Source: a virus. From it: DNA of 20,457 nt. The stretch is from positions 1 to 20,457 of the IMG/VR virus record IMGVR_UViG_3300031758_000710; one strand, given 5' to 3'. The translations under genes were made by a program, and so were the position numbers. Under the pieces are notes generated by a model. It saw only the letters and a program-made list of their open reading frames with translations, did not search any database and was not told where the DNA came from. Of the stretch, positions 4,615 through 16,370 are shown piece by piece (position 1 is the stretch's first letter; every line of letters begins with the position of its first letter).

Positions 4615-4846
4615 ACGCCTTGCCTGCGGCAATCGCGGCGTCCACGGCAGTCATGTCTTCATCGGTCCAGTATTCCTTGACACGCATCAGTTCGAGGTGC
4701 GCGACGTTGCGACCGACTGCATCCTTCTTTTCCTGCTCGCTTGCCCCCTTCATCTGCTGGCCCGCGATGATCGCGTTGATGAGCCAGACGCTGTCGCCCA
4801 GCGCGCTGTACTGCTGAGCGATTTCTTCGGGGGTAGGGGTATCCAT
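4607..4846 (-). CDS. Small phage protein next to tail fibre
   Basis: This is a 79-residue protein starting MDTPTPEEIAQQY, with ATG at 4846 overlapping the fibre stop codon (ATGA). The open frame extends further upstream, but that part lies wholly inside the fibre gene and has out-of-frame composition, so the ATGA start is preferred. The protein is acidic, helical and ends TDEDMTAVDAAIAAGKAYV. It has no membrane segment and no enzyme motif. Small acidic genes are often found after phage fibre genes, where some act as fibre assembly factors; that is only a positional hint here. I do not recognise the family with certainty. Confidence 0.78.
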   Translation of the reverse strand: MDTPTPEEIAQQYSALGDSVWLINAIIAGQQMKGASEQEKKDAVGRNVAHLELMRVKEYWTDEDMTAVDAAIAAGKAYV

Positions 4847-7251
4847 CACTTTGCTCCTTGAAGTTGCGCGACTTGCGCTTGGAGAGATTGAACTTGTGCC
4901 GAGAGATCTTGAATCGCTTTCACCAGCACGGGCAGCAGTTTGCCATAGCCGGCTTCCAGCTTGTCGGGGTTGCTTGCGTACACAAGACCGGGGATCTCGG
5001 TCTCGGTGGCTTCCTGCACCTCCTGCAGATCCTGCGCGATGAATCCGGTATCGGGCACGCCGACCTTGCCGCCGTCGCGCATGGCCCATTCAAAAGCCAC
5101 AGGACGCAGTGCGTTGACGAAATCCAACCCCGCCGGCAGGGGGCGCACATTGCGCTTGTCCCGTGCATCCGAGAGCGCGGTGATCGTGGTGACCTGCGCG
5201 CGGATGGTCGCGATACTGCTGTTGCCGAGCGTGATCTCGTTGGAGACCGTGGCGCTGGACGATGCAGCGTTGTAGCCGATGATGGTGTTGTTGGAGCCGG
5301 TGGTCAGGTTGTTGGTGCCAGAATTGCCGGCGTTAGCGCCAAGAAGGGTGTTTTGCGTACCAGTAGTAATCGCAGAGCCGGCGAAACATCCAACTGCAGC
5401 GTTATTATTACCAGTAGTAGCTTGCGACAAAGCCGAGCGTCCAACGGCAACATTCTCAATTCCGGTTGAGTTGACGCTAAGCGCCAAATAGCCTACAGCC
5501 GTGTTTGAGTAGCCCGTGGTGTTAGCTGCTAACGCGCGACCCAACGCGGTGTTTTCGTACCCAGTCGTATTGGCCCCTAGAGCGGTAAAGCCGACGGCTG
5601 TGTTTGAGTATCCGGTAGTATTGGCGTCAAGGGCCGTCGCTCCCACAGCTACGTTATCAACGCCGGTGGTGTTTGCTTCAAGTGCACGGCGCCCAACTGC
5701 GACGTTATTAGTGCCTATTGTGTTAGCGGCAAGCGAGCCTGCGCCAAAAGCAGTATTATCATTGCCGGTAGTATTGGAATCCAATGCTTGATAGCCAAAA
5801 GCTACATTTTGCGATCCGGTCGTGTTGGCGTAAAGCGCCTGATGCCCTACGGCAGCGTTATTGCTGCCAAAAGTGTTCGTTCGCAGTGCCTCGTTGCCTA
5901 CGGCAGTATTATAATTGCCTGTAGTGTTTGAGAACAGCGCTTCATTGCCGGTCGCCGTGTTGTAGTCGCCAGTAGAAGATGTAAGTGCGGCGCGCCCTAC
6001 AGCCGTGTTTCTACTTCCGGTGGTATTTGCACCAAGAGCTTCGCTGCCCAGCGCGGTGTTGTACACGCCGGTTGTATTGGCATCCAGCGCTTGGTACCCA
6101 AGCGCTGCGTTATCTTGGCCTGACGTATTCGCCTTGCCCGCCTGATACCCGATGAACGTGTTATTCACCCCGGTAGTCGAGTTCCCCGCCTCAAAGCCCA
6201 GCGAGGTCTCAAACGGCGTGGCCGAGTCGGTGTCGCCCAGCAGCGAAGCGCCAGCAGCCGCAGAAGTCCAAGTCGTGCCGTTGCTCGTGAGCACGTTGCC
6301 CGACGCGCCGGGGGCTACGAAGAGCGGAGCGGAAGTGCCATTGCCGAGGATGACGTTGTTGGCCGTCAGCGTGGTTGCACCCGTGCCGCCGTTGGAAACG
6401 GGTAGCGTGCCAGAGACATGCGTGGTAAGGCCGATCTTGCCGTAGGAAGGTGCTACCCCTACACCGCCCGAAATAAGCGCGTTGCCCGTTGCGACATCGG
6501 CCAGCTTGGACAGTGCAGTGGTGGTCGAGGCGAACAGGAGGTCACCGACGGCATAAGAAGACTGCCCGGTTCCGCCGTTAGCGGCCACCAGCGTGCCTGC
6601 GACTGAGACCGCCCCGGAGGTCGCCGTAGCTGGAGTCAGGCCCGTGGTGCCGAACGTGATCGTCGTGACGCCCGTTGCCGAAGGCGTGGCCGAAGTCCAA
6701 GTCGTGCCGTTGCTGGTCAGAATGTTTCCGTTTGTGCCGGGAGCCACAAATTGCACAGGCGAGGCGCCATTGCCGAGGATCACGTTGTTGGCGGTCAGCG
6801 TGGTTGCGCCAGTGCCTCCCTGCGCCACCGTAATCGTGCTCAAAGGAAGCGTAGACGCCACCTTTGCAAAGTCGGAACCGTTCCACGCAACAACACAGCG
6901 CTCGCCAGCAACAACCGTTACACCCGTGGTCGGCCCCGCACCTCGCAGAACAATCGACTGTGTCCCGCCCGTGGAGTTGATAACCACATAGACTTTGGTT
7001 CTTGCCGGCGCAGTGATATTTCGCGTCAGCGTACCCGTAGCCGTCCACAAAATGACCGCTTGGCGTGCTTGATTGGTCGCACCTGTTGTGTCAGTAAGTG
7101 TTACGTCAGCATCCGTGCTGAGCGTAGTCGTTCCGGCTACAGCGGAATCCAGCAGCGTCGTGATAGCGTCATTTACCGTCTGCCCCCATGTGCCGGTAAG
7201 ATCGCCCGTGACCGGCAGCGCGAGTCCAAGATTTGCAGTGTATGTCGTCAT
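4846..7251 (-). CDS. Tail fibre with 17-residue repeats and C-terminal S74 self-cleaving chaperone
   Basis: This is an 801-residue protein, ATG at 7251 overlapping the previous stop (ATGA). Residues 1-135 form a fibre anchor domain starting MTTYTANLGLALPVTGDLTG. Residues 140-350 hold Gly/Thr-rich modules with the motif NGGTG(A/Q), one of them duplicated at DNA level. Residues 357-661 carry about 18 repeats of the pattern NTTGxxNTAVGxxALxA, like the left-handed beta-roll head repeats of YadA-type adhesins. The C-terminus is an intramolecular chaperone of the Peptidase_S74 family: it starts SDARDKRN, with Ser694 and Lys699 in the catalytic spacing, and ends in a coiled coil (IQDLSAQVQSLQAQVAQLQ). 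By family knowledge it trimerises the fibre and then cuts itself off before Ser694. Host receptor binding is the likely job. Confidence 0.93.
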   Translation of the reverse strand: MTTYTANLGLALPVTGDLTGTWGQTVNDAITTLLDSAVAGTTTLSTDADVTLTDTTGATNQARQAVILWTATGTLTRNITAPARTKVYVVINSTGGTQSIVLRGAGPTTGVTVVAGERCVVAWNGSDFAKVASTLPLSTITVAQGGTGATTLTANNVILGNGASPVQFVAPGTNGNILTSNGTTWTSATPSATGVTTITFGTTGLTPATATSGAVSVAGTLVAANGGTGQSSYAVGDLLFASTTTALSKLADVATGNALISGGVGVAPSYGKIGLTTHVSGTLPVSNGGTGATTLTANNVILGNGTSAPLFVAPGASGNVLTSNGTTWTSAAAGASLLGDTDSATPFETSLGFEAGNSTTGVNNTFIGYQAGKANTSGQDNAALGYQALDANTTGVYNTALGSEALGANTTGSRNTAVGRAALTSSTGDYNTATGNEALFSNTTGNYNTAVGNEALRTNTFGSNNAAVGHQALYANTTGSQNVAFGYQALDSNTTGNDNTAFGAGSLAANTIGTNNVAVGRRALEANTTGVDNVAVGATALDANTTGYSNTAVGFTALGANTTGYENTALGRALAANTTGYSNTAVGYLALSVNSTGIENVAVGRSALSQATTGNNNAAVGCFAGSAITTGTQNTLLGANAGNSGTNNLTTGSNNTIIGYNAASSSATVSNEITLGNSSIATIRAQVTTITALSDARDKRNVRPLPAGLDFVNALRPVAFEWAMRDGGKVGVPDTGFIAQDLQEVQEATETEIPGLVYASNPDKLEAGYGKLLPVLVKAIQDLSAQVQSLQAQVAQLQGAK
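5269..6183 (-). repeat. 51-bp tandem repeat array in the tail fibre gene
   Basis: About 18 diverged, in-frame copies of a 51-base unit encode the 17-residue pattern NTTGxxNTAVGxxALxA. At least two copies are one codon short: STGDYNTATGNEALFS and NTTGYENTALGRALAA, each 16 residues. By eye, the array uses more A/T at third positions than the rest of the gene. The copies differ in many silent positions, so it is an old or selected array and not a fresh expansion. Confidence 0.9.
6263..6820 (-). repeat. Duplicated 129-bp module in fibre gene (copies 6263-6391 and 6692-6820)
   Basis: Two direct copies lie 429 bases (143 codons) apart in the same frame. Both encode the pattern GGTGATTLTANNVILGNG followed by VAPG and LTSNGTTWTSA. 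Most differences are silent or confined to a short loop (ASPVQF versus TSAPLF). A third, weaker NGGTG unit lies between them. It is a within-gene duplication of a shaft module and can serve as a site of homologous recombination. Confidence 0.85.
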
Positions 7252-7677: not shown

Positions 7678-8334
7678 TCACCTCACCGGGGTTTTTTGGA
7701 AGCCTGACCGGTACTGGTCTTGCTTTTCTGCCCCATCGCCCAGCCTCTTGGCAAGCAACAGCGCTTCCTTGTACTTGTCGTCGTACAGCTTGATCAGATC
7801 TGCCTCGCCCTTGAGGAAAACGTAACATTCGACAAGCGCGCCGTAGAGCAGCACGGTGTCCATGTTGTCCCCGAGCCATGTGCGCCCACTTACCGCCGTC
7901 GTGATCGACTCGGGGTAGTGGTAGTACTCAAGCGGGAGACTGTAGGCGAGATCTGGCGTCGGTCCCAGAATGAACCGAAGCTCCTTGGCGTCAGACTGAT
8001 CTACGCCGTAGATGCCGTACACCTTAGGCAACCCCGTAGCCGCGACCGTCGGATACGTCTCTCGGATGAAGCTGGGGTCTTTGTTCAGCAGGTAGGTGTA
8101 CACGCCCGAAGCAGGAACGACTGCCAACGAGTGCGCTGAAAGGAAGTCCGAAGGGCAGGTGATGTACGGCGACCCGATGACCGCCGTAAGCGTCGTGGCT
8201 TTCCGAGATGCCGCAAAATTGACCGTCTGGTAGATGCGCTGCTCCGCCTGCTTGATGCAGGTGTTCACATCAACCGTATCGAAGGTGTTCTCTAGGAACC
8301 CCTGAATCGCTGCGACAAGCTCGGTATAGGTCAT
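7678..8334 (-). CDS. Head-tail adaptor-like protein (SU10-type)
   Basis: This is a 218-residue protein, ATG at 8334. The start TYTELVAAIQGFLENTFDTV and the helix IKQAEQRIYQTVN form a helical N-terminal region. The middle is beta-rich and carries the motifs SPYITCPSDFLSAHSLAVV and RFILGPTPDLAYSLPLEYY. The C-terminal part (LGDNMDTVLLYGALVECYVF, then YKEALLLAKRLGDG) is again helical. This helical bundle with a beta insertion fits the adaptor proteins that dock under the portal, and I associate the motifs with the family named after phage SU10. It follows two very short genes and precedes the fibre region. A second adaptor-like gene lies at 9056-9751, so which one contacts the portal is open. Confidence 0.78.
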   Translation of the reverse strand: MTYTELVAAIQGFLENTFDTVDVNTCIKQAEQRIYQTVNFAASRKATTLTAVIGSPYITCPSDFLSAHSLAVVPASGVYTYLLNKDPSFIRETYPTVAATGLPKVYGIYGVDQSDAKELRFILGPTPDLAYSLPLEYYHYPESITTAVSGRTWLGDNMDTVLLYGALVECYVFLKGEADLIKLYDDKYKEALLLAKRLGDGAEKQDQYRSGFQKTPVR

Positions 8335-8337
8335 ATC

Positions 8338-8502
8338 TTACGCCATCGGCCCACGCGCCATGGTGCCCTTGGTAGCGGCCCCGGTACCGCGAATCTTGAT
8401 GCCCGATGTCTTGATCTCAGGACACGGTTTGTTGGAGTACGCGCCAACGCTAACGCGCATGTTCTGCAGCGTGGGTTCTGCCGGCTGTTTGGTCTTGGCC
8501 AT
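8338..8502 (-). CDS. 54-residue conserved phage peptide (GTGAATKG motif)
   Basis: This is a very short gene, ATG at 8502 and TAA at 8338-8340, with no gap from its neighbours: its start overlaps the previous stop as TAATG. The translation begins MAKTKQPAEPTLQNMRVSVG and ends GIKIRGTGAATKGTMARGPM plus Ala. The glycine-rich, basic C-terminus resembles the RGKTKG-type endings of two other proteins in this window. There is no membrane segment or metal site. Its placement between adaptor genes and the tight overlaps make it a real gene; I cannot assign a function. A structural minor protein or assembly peptide is possible. Confidence 0.8.
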   Translation of the reverse strand: MAKTKQPAEPTLQNMRVSVGAYSNKPCPEIKTSGIKIRGTGAATKGTMARGPMA

Positions 8503-9752: not shown

Positions 9753-9989
9753 CTATCTCTTCGCAGTCTTTGCCGACTGCACGAACGCTTGTGCCGTCGG
9801 CGCACCGGGGGCGCCGGGCTTGCGCATCTTTTCGCCGCTACCGGCAGCGATACGCTTACGCTTGGCGTGAATGTTCTCGTACAAGCCGCCTTTGGCCAAC
9901 ATCTTGACAGGCTCAGTGCCGTCACGCTTGACCACTGTACGCGGGCGCTTAGCCGGGGCAATCGCGCCCATGCCACGGCTCGGCCGCAT
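9753..9989 (-). CDS. Small basic phage protein (AKRKRIAAGSGEKMRKPG motif)
   Basis: This is a 78-residue, Lys/Arg-rich protein with ATG at 9989 overlapping the upstream TGA (ATGA). A central motif, GGLYENIHAKRKRIAAGSGE, is followed by MRKPGAPGAPTAQAFVQSAK and a basic end. It has no membrane segment. I recall this LYxNIHAKRKRI motif as very common in uncultured phages, always in the structural region, with no assigned role. A DNA- or capsid-interacting minor protein would fit the charge and position, as an inference only. Confidence 0.82.
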   Translation of the reverse strand: MRPSRGMGAIAPAKRPRTVVKRDGTEPVKMLAKGGLYENIHAKRKRIAAGSGEKMRKPGAPGAPTAQAFVQSAKTAKR

Positions 9990-10756
9990 CAGATGTACCT
10001 GCCTTTCGTCTTGCCCCGCGAAGCAATCCCATCCGCCGAGCGGACATAGCCGCCCTTCTTGAACGCACCCCCATCGTCGGACATCCGCATCTCGTCGTCA
10101 TCGCGCGGGGGCTTACGCTTAGGCGGCTCCGCGCGAAGTTTGCCACCCTTGCCACCGGGTCCACGAGAAGGCGTAGCGCGCATCGACGCACGCGGCCCTT
10201 CAAGCTGCGCAGCGGCGCCACCAGACCCCGGGCGTGGGGTCGGAGACGGCAGCAGCCGCGAAGGCGCGGGTTCCGCAGGAGGCGGCAAACGCCGCCCTGC
10301 AGGCCCTGCAAGCTCAGGCGCCATACGCGTAGGCTCGCCGCGCCCAAGGAACCGCGCTACCGGGGCCGTGTTTGCCAGCGCACGCCCCGTAGAAGCCCCT
10401 GCAGCCGCTCCACGCAGTGCGCGGAGGGGCGGCATCATCGCCTCAGGCTCCACGCGCTCCAGCGCCTGCGCACGCTCCATGCGTTGCATACGTTCAAGGT
10501 CTTTGCCCGATGCGGCGGGAGTCTCAGGCGTGCTACGCCGGCTCAGCCGTGCAGTCTCATCGCCCGTATCAGTAGGCGCAGCGGCACGACGACCGGCAGG
10601 ACGGCTGGCAGGACGAGCCTGTTTTTCGCCAAACTGCTCATCGATCTGCGCTCGCATAACCGCATCGCGCGCCCGTCGGTAGATGTCCGGGTCGCTCTGA
10701 GCGAAGCGACCCCCTTCAGGTACATCCCCGCCTTCTTGGTACCGCTTCGCTTTCAT
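9989..10756 (-). CDS. Low-complexity Pro/Ala/Arg-rich protein with C-terminal GGYVR..ADG tag
   Basis: This is a 255-residue protein, ATG at 10756, with a GAGGTGA ribosome-binding site. The first 40 residues are helical (FAQSDPDIYRRARDAVMRAQ). The middle 170 are low-complexity, rich in Ala, Pro, Arg and Gly, and likely disordered. The last 25 form a compact motif, KKGGYVRSADGIASRGKTKG plus RYI, which is nearly repeated at the end of the next upstream gene product. A long antisense frame exists here because of GC-rich codons, but the minus frame has the ribosome site, the ATGA junction and the conserved tail. Function is unknown; the layout suggests a flexible linker carrying a recognition tail. 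Confidence 0.78.
   Translation of the reverse strand: MKAKRYQEGGDVPEGGRFAQSDPDIYRRARDAVMRAQIDEQFGEKQARPASRPAGRRAAAPTDTGDETARLSRRSTPETPAASGKDLERMQRMERAQALERVEPEAMMPPLRALRGAAAGASTGRALANTAPVARFLGRGEPTRMAPELAGPAGRRLPPPAEPAPSRLLPSPTPRPGSGGAAAQLEGPRASMRATPSRGPGGKGGKLRAEPPKRKPPRDDDEMRMSDDGGAFKKGGYVRSADGIASRGKTKGRYI
10001..10057 (-). other. C-terminal peptide motif, copy 1 (GGYVRxADGxAxxGKTK)
   Basis: Nineteen codons encode KGGYVRSADGIASRGKTKG. The copy at 10804-10860 shares 13 of 19 residues, but 8 of those 13 shared residues use a different synonymous codon. That pattern indicates selection on the peptide and not a recent DNA copy. Confidence 0.8.
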
Positions 10757-10764
10757 GGTTCACC

Positions 10765-11121
10765 TCAGCAGGTTTTGCCGCCGCCAGCCATCTTGACTTG
10801 TTTGGCCTTGGTCTTGCCCTTCTGAGCAACACCGTCAGCAGCACGAACGTAGCCGCCATTGGCAAAAGGCTTACCCTTGGCCTCCGCCATCTCGTGCCTG
10901 ATCATCGATTTCGGAGCGCCCTTCTTCTTCATGAAGGCCACTTCCTTCTTCATCATCGCGGGAGATTCTTTCATCTCAGACTCCTTAGCGGCACCGCCGC
11001 CAGCTTTGTGTTCAGCAAACTTCCTACCCACCGACTGGGGGATACCCACTTTCTTGGCGAACGCGGGGTTGTGCGCCACGCCTTGCATCAGTCGCTTCTG
11101 CTTCTCGCTTGCGTACGGCAT
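10765..11121 (-). CDS. Small basic phage protein with C-terminal GGYVR..ADG tag
   Basis: This is a 118-residue protein; ATG at 11121 overlaps the previous stop (ATGA), while a GTG one codon earlier is less likely. The N-terminus PYASEKQKRLMQGVAHNPAF continues AKKVGIPQSVGRKFAEHKAG, a motif I recall from many phage small proteins. A Met/Lys-rich helix follows (MMKKEVAFMKKKGAPKSMIR). The end holds FANGGYVRAADGVAQKGKTK, matching the tail of the downstream neighbour, then a short Gly/Lys extension ending in Cys. No catalytic site is seen. Its role is unknown; shared tails on adjacent proteins suggest a common partner or location. Confidence 0.83.
   Translation of the reverse strand: MPYASEKQKRLMQGVAHNPAFAKKVGIPQSVGRKFAEHKAGGGAAKESEMKESPAMMKKEVAFMKKKGAPKSMIRHEMAEAKGKPFANGGYVRAADGVAQKGKTKAKQVKMAGGGKTC
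10804..10860 (-). other. C-terminal peptide motif, copy 2 (GGYVRxADGxAxxGKTK)
   Basis: Nineteen codons encode NGGYVRAADGVAQKGKTKA. This is the partner of the motif at 10001-10057; the host proteins are otherwise unrelated by eye. Unlike copy 1, it is followed by 12 more residues before the stop. Confidence 0.8.
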
Positions 11122-11301: not shown

Positions 11302-11547
11302 TCAGCAGTTCCACGCCCGCAACGATTTGTTGATCCTGCTATTGGGGTCACTTGCCGTCTTAGCAGAAGTCAACTTTCGTTTCATACCTTTCATTCTGGC
11401 ACAGAACGAGTCGCGGCGTGAGCCCCCTTCAGGCTGAGGGGGCTTCAAGTTCATGCCCTGCGCTTTCGCAGAAGCACGCCCTTTGGCGTTCAGCCCGCCT
11501 TTAGGGTTCTGGCCTTCCTTGCGCTGCCATGCTGGCGTCTTTGCCAC
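11302..11547 (-). CDS. DUF6321-like small phage protein
   Basis: This is an 81-residue protein. The start is most likely GTG at 11547, just after the previous TGA and 6 bases from a GGGAG site; a TTG at 11577 would add ten residues with no ribosome site. The translation starts VAKTPAWQRKEGQNPKGGLN (Val read as Met), then GRASAKAQGMNLKPPQPEGG, SFCARMKGMKRKLTSAKT and DPNSRINKSLRAWNC. These blocks match the family I recall as DUF6321, widely found in phages and without a known role. It is basic, with Cys at the end and in SFCARM. Its neighbours are all small structural-region genes. Confidence 0.85.
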   Translation of the reverse strand: MAKTPAWQRKEGQNPKGGLNAKGRASAKAQGMNLKPPQPEGGSRRDSFCARMKGMKRKLTSAKTASDPNSRINKSLRAWNC

Positions 11548-11548
11548 A

Positions 11549-11716
11549 TCAGGCTCCCATGCCTTGAAGTTGGGCAATCGTGGTCTGCGTGTCGCCGATC
11601 TCTACATCAAGTCGGGCAATAGCATCAGCATCGCCGATAGCCACCGCATCCGCCCGCTGCCCATTTAGGTAAGCAAGCCTAGACTGCGCCAGCTTGAGTA
11701 GATCACTGAGTGTCAT
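11549..11716 (-). CDS. 55-residue helical phage peptide
   Basis: ATG at 11716 follows the 535-residue gene's stop by two bases, and the TGA at 11549-11551 is one base before the next GTG start. The translation starts MTLSDLLKLAQSRLAYLNGQ and continues with DADAIARLDVEIGDTQTTIA, with leucine spacing of a short coiled coil. It falls under common length cutoffs, but its tight spacing and familiar pattern (a helical hairpin peptide seen in many phages) support it. Function is unknown; a small assembly or linker protein is plausible. Confidence 0.8.
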   Translation of the reverse strand: MTLSDLLKLAQSRLAYLNGQRADAVAIGDADAIARLDVEIGDTQTTIAQLQGMGA

Positions 11717-15458: not shown

Positions 15459-16370
15459 TTAGCTCGAACCGGGCGAGCCGTAGATGCCCAGCGGATCGCT
15501 GACGCCGAAGCTGTAACGCTCACGGGCCTTGTAGCGAACATTGCCGGTATCGAAATCGCCGTCCATGCTGGTAGACAGCTTGGTGCGGACGAAGTGCTTC
15601 ATACCGTTAGGCACGTCCGTGGTGAGGAACCACGCATTGCTGTCGGTCAGGAAGTGGTTGACCGTGTAGCCGCCGGGGATCGACCCGTTGTTCTTCAGCG
15701 CGTTGATGTCGTTGTCCGTGGTGCCGACGCGCAGGTTGGTTTCCAGCAGTCGGGTGGCGACGAACATCAGGGCCGGCGGGATGATCAGCTTCTTCGGCTT
15801 GGCAGCGATCAGCAGACCCTTCTCGTCCGTCCACGCCGCGATCTGAATGACTGCCGCTTCGAGCGAAGTCTCGTTCAGGTCCGCCGCCGTAGCAGGACGA
15901 TTGCTGTTGACGCCACCGGACACGAGCGGGTGGGCCGTGCTGAACAGGCTGACACCATCGCCGTAGACCACGGTAGACGAGAAGCCTTGGTTCAGCAGAT
16001 TGGCCGCTTTGACCTGCTTGGTGTAGGCCATACCACGGGCCAGCGCCTTGGTGTACCGGGCACTGAGGCTGTCGTAGAGGTTGTCCTCCACAGCTTCCTC
16101 GGTGATCGAGAAACCGAGCGCGATGGTCTCGTGGTTGTAGCGAGCAGTCCACGCTTCCTGCGCGTTGTCGTACTGGATCGCGGAGCCTTCGGCCTTGACC
16201 GGCGCTGCACCGAAACCGGCCAGCTTGGTCTCTTCCTCGAAGCTACGTTCCGAAGACTCGGTTTCGTAGATCTCCTTGTGCTCCTCGCCGTAGCGAGCGT
16301 ACTCCAGACCGAACAGCGCGTTAAGCCCCGGCAGGAGTTCCTTCAGCAGTTGGGCACGGGTAATTGCCAT
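15459..16370 (-). CDS. Major capsid protein (HK97 fold, Mu gpT-like group)
   Basis: This is a 303-residue protein from ATG at 16370, with a GAGGAG ribosome site. It is the shell protein of the head. Features typical of this capsid group are the N-arm and E-loop region (YETESSERSFEEETKLAGFG), then TARYNHETIALGFSITEEAV where Mu-gpT-like proteins have the same segment. Further along are LLNQGFSSTVVYGDGVSLFS, the P-domain stretch KPKKLIIPPALMFVATRLLE, and the closing RYKARERYSFGVSDPLGIYG. No protease gene or propeptide is visible; a scaffold gene lies two genes upstream. The terminator directly downstream suggests that this gene sits at the end of a highly expressed transcript. Confidence 0.93.
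   Translation of the reverse strand: MAITRAQLLKELLPGLNALFGLEYARYGEEHKEIYETESSERSFEEETKLAGFGAAPVKAEGSAIQYDNAQEAWTARYNHETIALGFSITEEAVEDNLYDSLSARYTKALARGMAYTKQVKAANLLNQGFSSTVVYGDGVSLFSTAHPLVSGGVNSNRPATAADLNETSLEAAVIQIAAWTDEKGLLIAAKPKKLIIPPALMFVATRLLETNLRVGTTDNDINALKNNGSIPGGYTVNHFLTDSNAWFLTTDVPNGMKHFVRTKLSTSMDGDFDTGNVRYKARERYSFGVSDPLGIYGSPGSS

Follow-up and report, generated by a model that had tools for sequence, protein, structure and literature searches.

The window, i.e., the whole stretch of DNA analysed here, comprises the 20,457 bases of a record from an uncultured aquatic phage, in which two adjacent genes encode the proteins P1 and P2 (Table 1). For P1 no Pfam or PHROG match was obtained in profile searches. 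Both proteins share a C-terminal peptide, in the following called the tag, and in P2 this stretch reads ANGGYVRAADGVAQKGKTKAKQVKMAGGGKTC, followed by the stop. Alignment of the two tags gives 13 identical residues out of 19, with different codons at eight of the 13 identical positions, and these counts, already given in the preliminary description, were exactly reproduced on recomputation. Independent codon choice with the codon usage of this phage predicts 7.5 differing codons, which is close to the eight observed, and the codons of the two tags therefore look unlinked. The match score of 53 was reached by none of 300 composition-preserving shuffles, the highest of which scored 31. In BLASTP, residues 232-255 of P1 align with residues 87-110 of P2 (E = 3e-8) and no other region aligns. 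Homology of P1 and P2 along their whole length, which the preliminary description had named as speaking against a shared tag, was therefore rejected, as the proteins have only the C-terminal stretch in common. In P1 the motif lies at the extreme C-terminus with four residues after GKTK, in P2 it is followed by 13 further residues, and both layouts represent common classes among other phages.

The adaptor protein and both tag sequences of the window recur unchanged in the longer IMG/VR record L128 (IMGVR_UViG_3300027816_000247; 34,819 bases), which is apparently a longer assembly of the same or of a nearly identical phage. A further gene of the window (4846-7251, minus strand) encodes a protein of 801 aa with many repeats of the type TGxxNTAxGxxAL; by eye its C-terminus looks like a peptidase S74 intramolecular chaperone, and it is likely a tail fibre.

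Table 1. Coordinates of the features of the window.
Feature	Position	Strand	Remarks
SU10-type adaptor protein	7678-8334	-	PF24175, E = 1.5e-21; downstream border of the interval with tagged genes
Small phrog_16028-domain protein	9753-9989	-	Untagged in the window; KKTK tag present on the homologs of marine relatives
P1	9989-10756	-	255 aa; Pro/Ala/Arg-rich, low-complexity; C-terminal tag; ends in KKGGYVRSADGIASRGKTKGRYI before the stop
P1 tag	9992-10054	-	GGYVRSADGIASRGKTKGRYI; extreme C-terminus, '+4' class
P2	10765-11124	-	119 aa from GTG (10765-11121 from ATG); Lys/Met-rich; N-terminal helical domain (phrog_16759) and C-terminal tag
P2 tag	10768-10857	-	GGYVRAADGVAQKGKTKAKQVKMAGGGKTC; '+13' class ending in Cys
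DUF6321 protein	11302-11577	-	Untagged in the window; PF19846, E = 1.3e-18; homologs carry the tag directly after RINKSLRAWNC (alignment)
Major capsid protein	15459-16370	-	PF25209/Mu gpT-like; upstream border of the interval with tagged genes

Consensus of the tag and diversity of its carriers

A degenerate DNA pattern for the tag core matched at least 120 stretches in IMG/VR, and in 84,980 bacterial and archaeal genomes it was found on five contigs, all from MAGs. The pattern-selected loci contain 236 ORF matches. In 142 of them the protein stops exactly four residues past GKT[KR], and in most others 11-29 residues follow, chiefly with a GGxxC ending. The tag is also present in loci that were picked regardless of it, via the adaptor protein or the capsid protein. 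In total, the IMG/VR loci encode 453 different tagged proteins, of which 247 end exactly four residues past the motif ('+4' class), and the consensus is GG..SASxR[AG]DG[IC]Ax[RK]GKT[KR]G[KR][MIF][VCI]-COOH. Every protein of the '+4' class has the G, G and T prescribed by the search pattern, D is conserved to 94%, and SAS upstream and G[KR] downstream are strongly preferred, the positions -6 to -1 and +10 to +13 being free in the adaptor- and capsid-selected loci. Variants at which the first regular expression failed include GIESKGKTKCKMR, RADGCVTKGHTKGKFV and GRT forms. In short ORFs of five loci (L038, L042, L109, L178, and L195) the usual placement is inverted, and the GKT motif lies close to the N-terminus (MAFTKSADGIASKGKTKGKNLGDSGP...).

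A tblastn search with the bare tag, which is limited by low-complexity filtering and by the query length, gave no match in 50,697 phage records. Among cultured phages the tag was found in one genome only, deposited three times as Planktothrix phage Pag-Yong1 and two duplicates (72% capsid identity). It was spotted by reading and is present in the GRT form at the end of a single Pro/Ala-rich protein, UMO75986.1, in a position comparable to P1. Other cultured relatives by capsid similarity are DSL-LC04, 023Pt_psg01, HTVC023P, HTVC027P, CRP-901, and CRP-902, and the stretches read of DSL-LC04, 023Pt_psg01, HTVC023P, and CRP-902 contain no canonical GKT tag. In the cultured pelagiphage HTVC023P, the YPSAYAN-domain protein QGZ17680.1 (L209:17481-17864) ends in RGGGAAVRGMGFKGVF, which is similar to the tags in outline. 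The preliminary description had regarded rarity of the motif in other phages as an argument against a tag; it is nearly absent from cultured phages, but it was found in every adequately covered locus of the uncultured clade to which the window belongs. Neither the motif nor tags of this type turned up in the open-licence full texts searched.

Without their tags, the carriers fall into 139 single-linkage families including 102 singletons, and in 141 of 196 loci the tagged proteins represent two or more families. The carriers have a median length of 132 aa and a median pI of 10.2 and are rich in disorder-promoting residues. The largest family, with 162 proteins, is that of P2. Its small helical N-terminal domain occurs alone as phiKZ gp165.1 and forms the start of CBB_322 in phage CBB; unlike P2, both lack the tag, and in CBB_322 the domain is followed by about 800 residues of unrelated sequence. 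In CBB virions, CBB_322 was identified by 30 unique peptides, counted for the whole protein (PMC5259590, Table 4), and this virion link of P2 runs via the N-terminal domain and not via the tag. DUF6321 proteins are found nearly identical with and without an extension of 23 residues, which is the tag, and on a quick tree, rough due to the short domain, its presence changes at least six times. Other families have C-termini of similar outline instead of the GKT tag, i.e., the GHT, RGWGxARGARxAK, and GQGRVIRSKKTRIC forms. In the T4-like cyanophage P-SSM4, PSSM4_160 (L416:4891-6276) has a DUF6321 domain fused to other small basic modules, which in podovirus-like phages occur as separate, sometimes tagged, proteins.

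The number of carrier families, the presence of at least two of them in most loci and the tagged and untagged DUF6321 proteins strongly support the portable tag that had been proposed from the window alone, and they show the shared peptide to be a portable short linear motif.

Location of the tagged genes and a second C-terminal tag

At least one tagged gene is present in each of the 86 loci that contain both the capsid and the adaptor gene, some of which originate from the same contigs so that the independent genomes are somewhat fewer. Of the 212 tagged genes in these loci, 211 are located in the interval between the two genes and have the orientation of the capsid gene, and the remaining one appears to be a spurious ORF. 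Each of 11 records of 40-65 kb has all its tags in one block of less than 2 kb, and a reversed control pattern gave no hits in these records. The co-occurrence of tagged proteins in one genome region, suggested in the preliminary description as a check, is thereby confirmed, and gene order shows the tagged genes to be restricted to one stretch of the head module. This restricted location suggests that the tag may dock accessory proteins into the virus particle.

Marine contigs encode another C-terminal peptide, ..I[AV][RK]GCGKVMxNRRKKTKxx-COOH, on unrelated small domains such as YPSAYAN, the SEKQR type, phrog_16028, DUF5824 and others, of which SEKQR and phrog_16028 are also present in the window. 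Like the GKT tag, this KKTK tag is C-terminal, portable among small domains, associated with the same capsid and adaptor families (in the pooled GKT and KKTK records PF25209 matches in 35/50 and PF24175 in 45/50) and mostly located in the same interval (22 of 26 genes). It differs from the GKT tag in sequence, in its single copy per genome (17/17 records), on carriers that change between genomes (L217-L336, e.g., L238:7996-8337), and in never being found beside a GKT tag (0/27 and 0/56 loci).

The protein encoded upstream of the adaptor in the window (8338-8502, minus strand) ends in KTSGIKIRGTGAATKGTMARGPMA. Many relatives have this ending at the corresponding position, for the most part on one family and otherwise on about ten other carriers, and it is possibly a third C-terminal tag. 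Weak matches of this protein to Pseudomonas phages were regarded as chance, because the one inspected is antisense to an annotated gene.

Conservation of the peptide, proposed docking and rival explanations

The '+4' tags of unrelated proteins are more alike within a genome (9.77 of 13 positions) than between genomes (8.92 of 13; 0/300 permutations), which is what a shared local partner would produce. Gene conversion is the weaker alternative since the codons at identical tag residues agree in only 48% of cases within genomes, compared with 43% between genomes. Codons diverge while the peptide stays strongly conserved across 247 proteins, also at positions that the search pattern left free, which at the sequence level is purifying selection on the peptide. 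In two AlphaFold models the pLDDT of the tag is below 50, and the tag is probably disordered. Its distances correlate with those of the capsid protein (r = 0.32), the adaptor (0.36), and the cement protein (0.50), correlations that single out no partner and could arise from linkage or shared ancestry. Sequence searches of the PDB revealed no relatives of P2, the DUF6321 protein, the capsid protein or the tag, and fold searches with P2 and one tagged DUF6321 protein gave no significant match. The Walker A/P-loop pattern GxxxxGK[ST] fits the tag (GIAQRGKT, GVAQKGKT), yet this assignment was rejected given the disorder, the GHT and GRT variants, which lack the Lys required in a P-loop, and the absence of a Pfam NTPase match.

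We give a probability of about 0.5 to the reading that the tag is a portable motif by which small basic proteins dock to the head or neck during assembly. The motif, attached to many different small, basic, largely disordered proteins and usually at their extreme C-terminus, would dock onto one conserved head or neck component, i.e., the capsid protein, the cement protein, the portal or the adaptor. By docking, each carrier would become part of the head during its assembly, either as cargo or as a neck or internal protein, and the motif would work like the encapsulin cargo-loading peptides or the capsid-targeting sequence of the T4 internal proteins. We infer a common partner and presence in the virion, both already considered in the preliminary description, and loading as the outcome. 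It speaks against this reading that the marine KKTK tag occurs once per genome and is therefore not common to several proteins there, and that a few short ORFs have the GKT motif near the N-terminus.

The main rival, which we regard as unlikely, is that the basic, Gly-rich motif could simply bind nucleic acid: it would be an RG/KGG-like DNA- or RNA-binding motif, and with it the basic proteins would cover or compact the packaged genome or bind RNA, with no protein partner involved. The strongly basic, disorder-rich carriers, the R/K/G-rich tag and the RGxGxA-like cores of the alternative C-termini are in line with this, but the invariant G, G and T (prescribed by the search pattern), the near-invariant D and the fixed C-terminal spacing (247/453) suggest a specific pocket, and the confinement of 211 of 212 genes between capsid and adaptor is unexpected for a generic binder.

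Two further explanations are improbable to about the same degree. As a degradation or regulation signal, the tag would be read by a host protease adaptor of the ClpX/Lon type, keeping the carriers low until assembly. Its extreme C-terminal position with basic, then hydrophobic residues (..G[KR][MIF][VCI]-COOH) would agree with this, and this end may resemble a MuA-type ClpX signal in outline. Against it stand a conserved core placed 4-20 residues before the end, the tolerance of 11-22 additional residues in the P2 class, the existence of N-terminal copies and the confinement of the tag to genes of the head module. The other holds that the tag has no common function and spread as a neutral C-terminal tail by repeated duplication or fusion within a phage lineage, as might be expected from carriers that all lie in a single block of genes, in which tails could be copied by recombination, and from tags slightly more alike within a genome. 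This is opposed by the low codon agreement given above for a strongly conserved peptide and by the presence of at least one tag in every adequately covered locus. Least probable is the protease site of the preliminary description, i.e., a site for a prohead protease maturing the carriers: head-assembly proteins are processed in many phages and the tagged genes sit in the head module, but usually only 1-4 residues follow the motif, so that cleavage would release almost nothing, and P1 and P2 have no common downstream sequence.

Returning to docking, a more far-reaching idea, which we put forward only tentatively and at less than even odds, is that of a peptide code for loading the virion, in which the terminal peptide and not the protein is the conserved unit. 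Lineage-specific flavours (GKT, GHT, KKTK, and RGWG) would match a cognate head or neck site, and small accessory or effector proteins could be swapped freely by attaching the peptide, in abundant, mostly uncultured aquatic podovirus-like phages. If the docking reading is right, sequence alone would suffice to recognise a whole class of small hypothetical phage proteins as virion cargo or head parts. The abundant HTVC023P-type pelagiphages are among the capsid relatives of this phage group. What these phages carry into the cell would become a directly testable question, and a short peptide would be on offer for loading foreign proteins into phage heads.

Comparison with known targeting peptides

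Encapsulin cargo-loading peptides are short and mostly C-terminal, and N-terminal copies also occur (PMC8346489). The tag shares with them that a short terminal peptide is found on unrelated proteins. Encapsulin cargo is encoded next to the gene of an HK97-fold shell protein, and the tagged genes lie beside a PF25209/Mu gpT-like capsid gene, assigned by sequence family, whose product would be the counterpart of this shell. The tag differs in that the TVGSL-type consensus is absent and the sequences are unrelated, and in its setting, the head module of phages whose clade has many small basic carriers. Encapsulin peptides bind the inner face of the shell, and for the tag binding to a shell is putative. 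The capsid targeting sequence of T4 (IPI-III, Alt) is likewise a short terminal peptide, of which about ten residues suffice for IPIII (PMC9026906). Here, the likeness lies in a short terminal peptide on several small proteins, which in T4 sends internal proteins into one head. The T4 signal, which the gp21 prohead protease removes, is however N-terminal and has no sequence similarity to the tag, which is usually C-terminal (most proteins end 1-22 residues past the motif) and whose carriers change between genomes. By analogy, the tag may work most like the encapsulin peptides and the T4 targeting sequence, but it belongs to neither system, since it lacks the consensus of encapsulin cargo and the T4 signal sits at the N-terminus.
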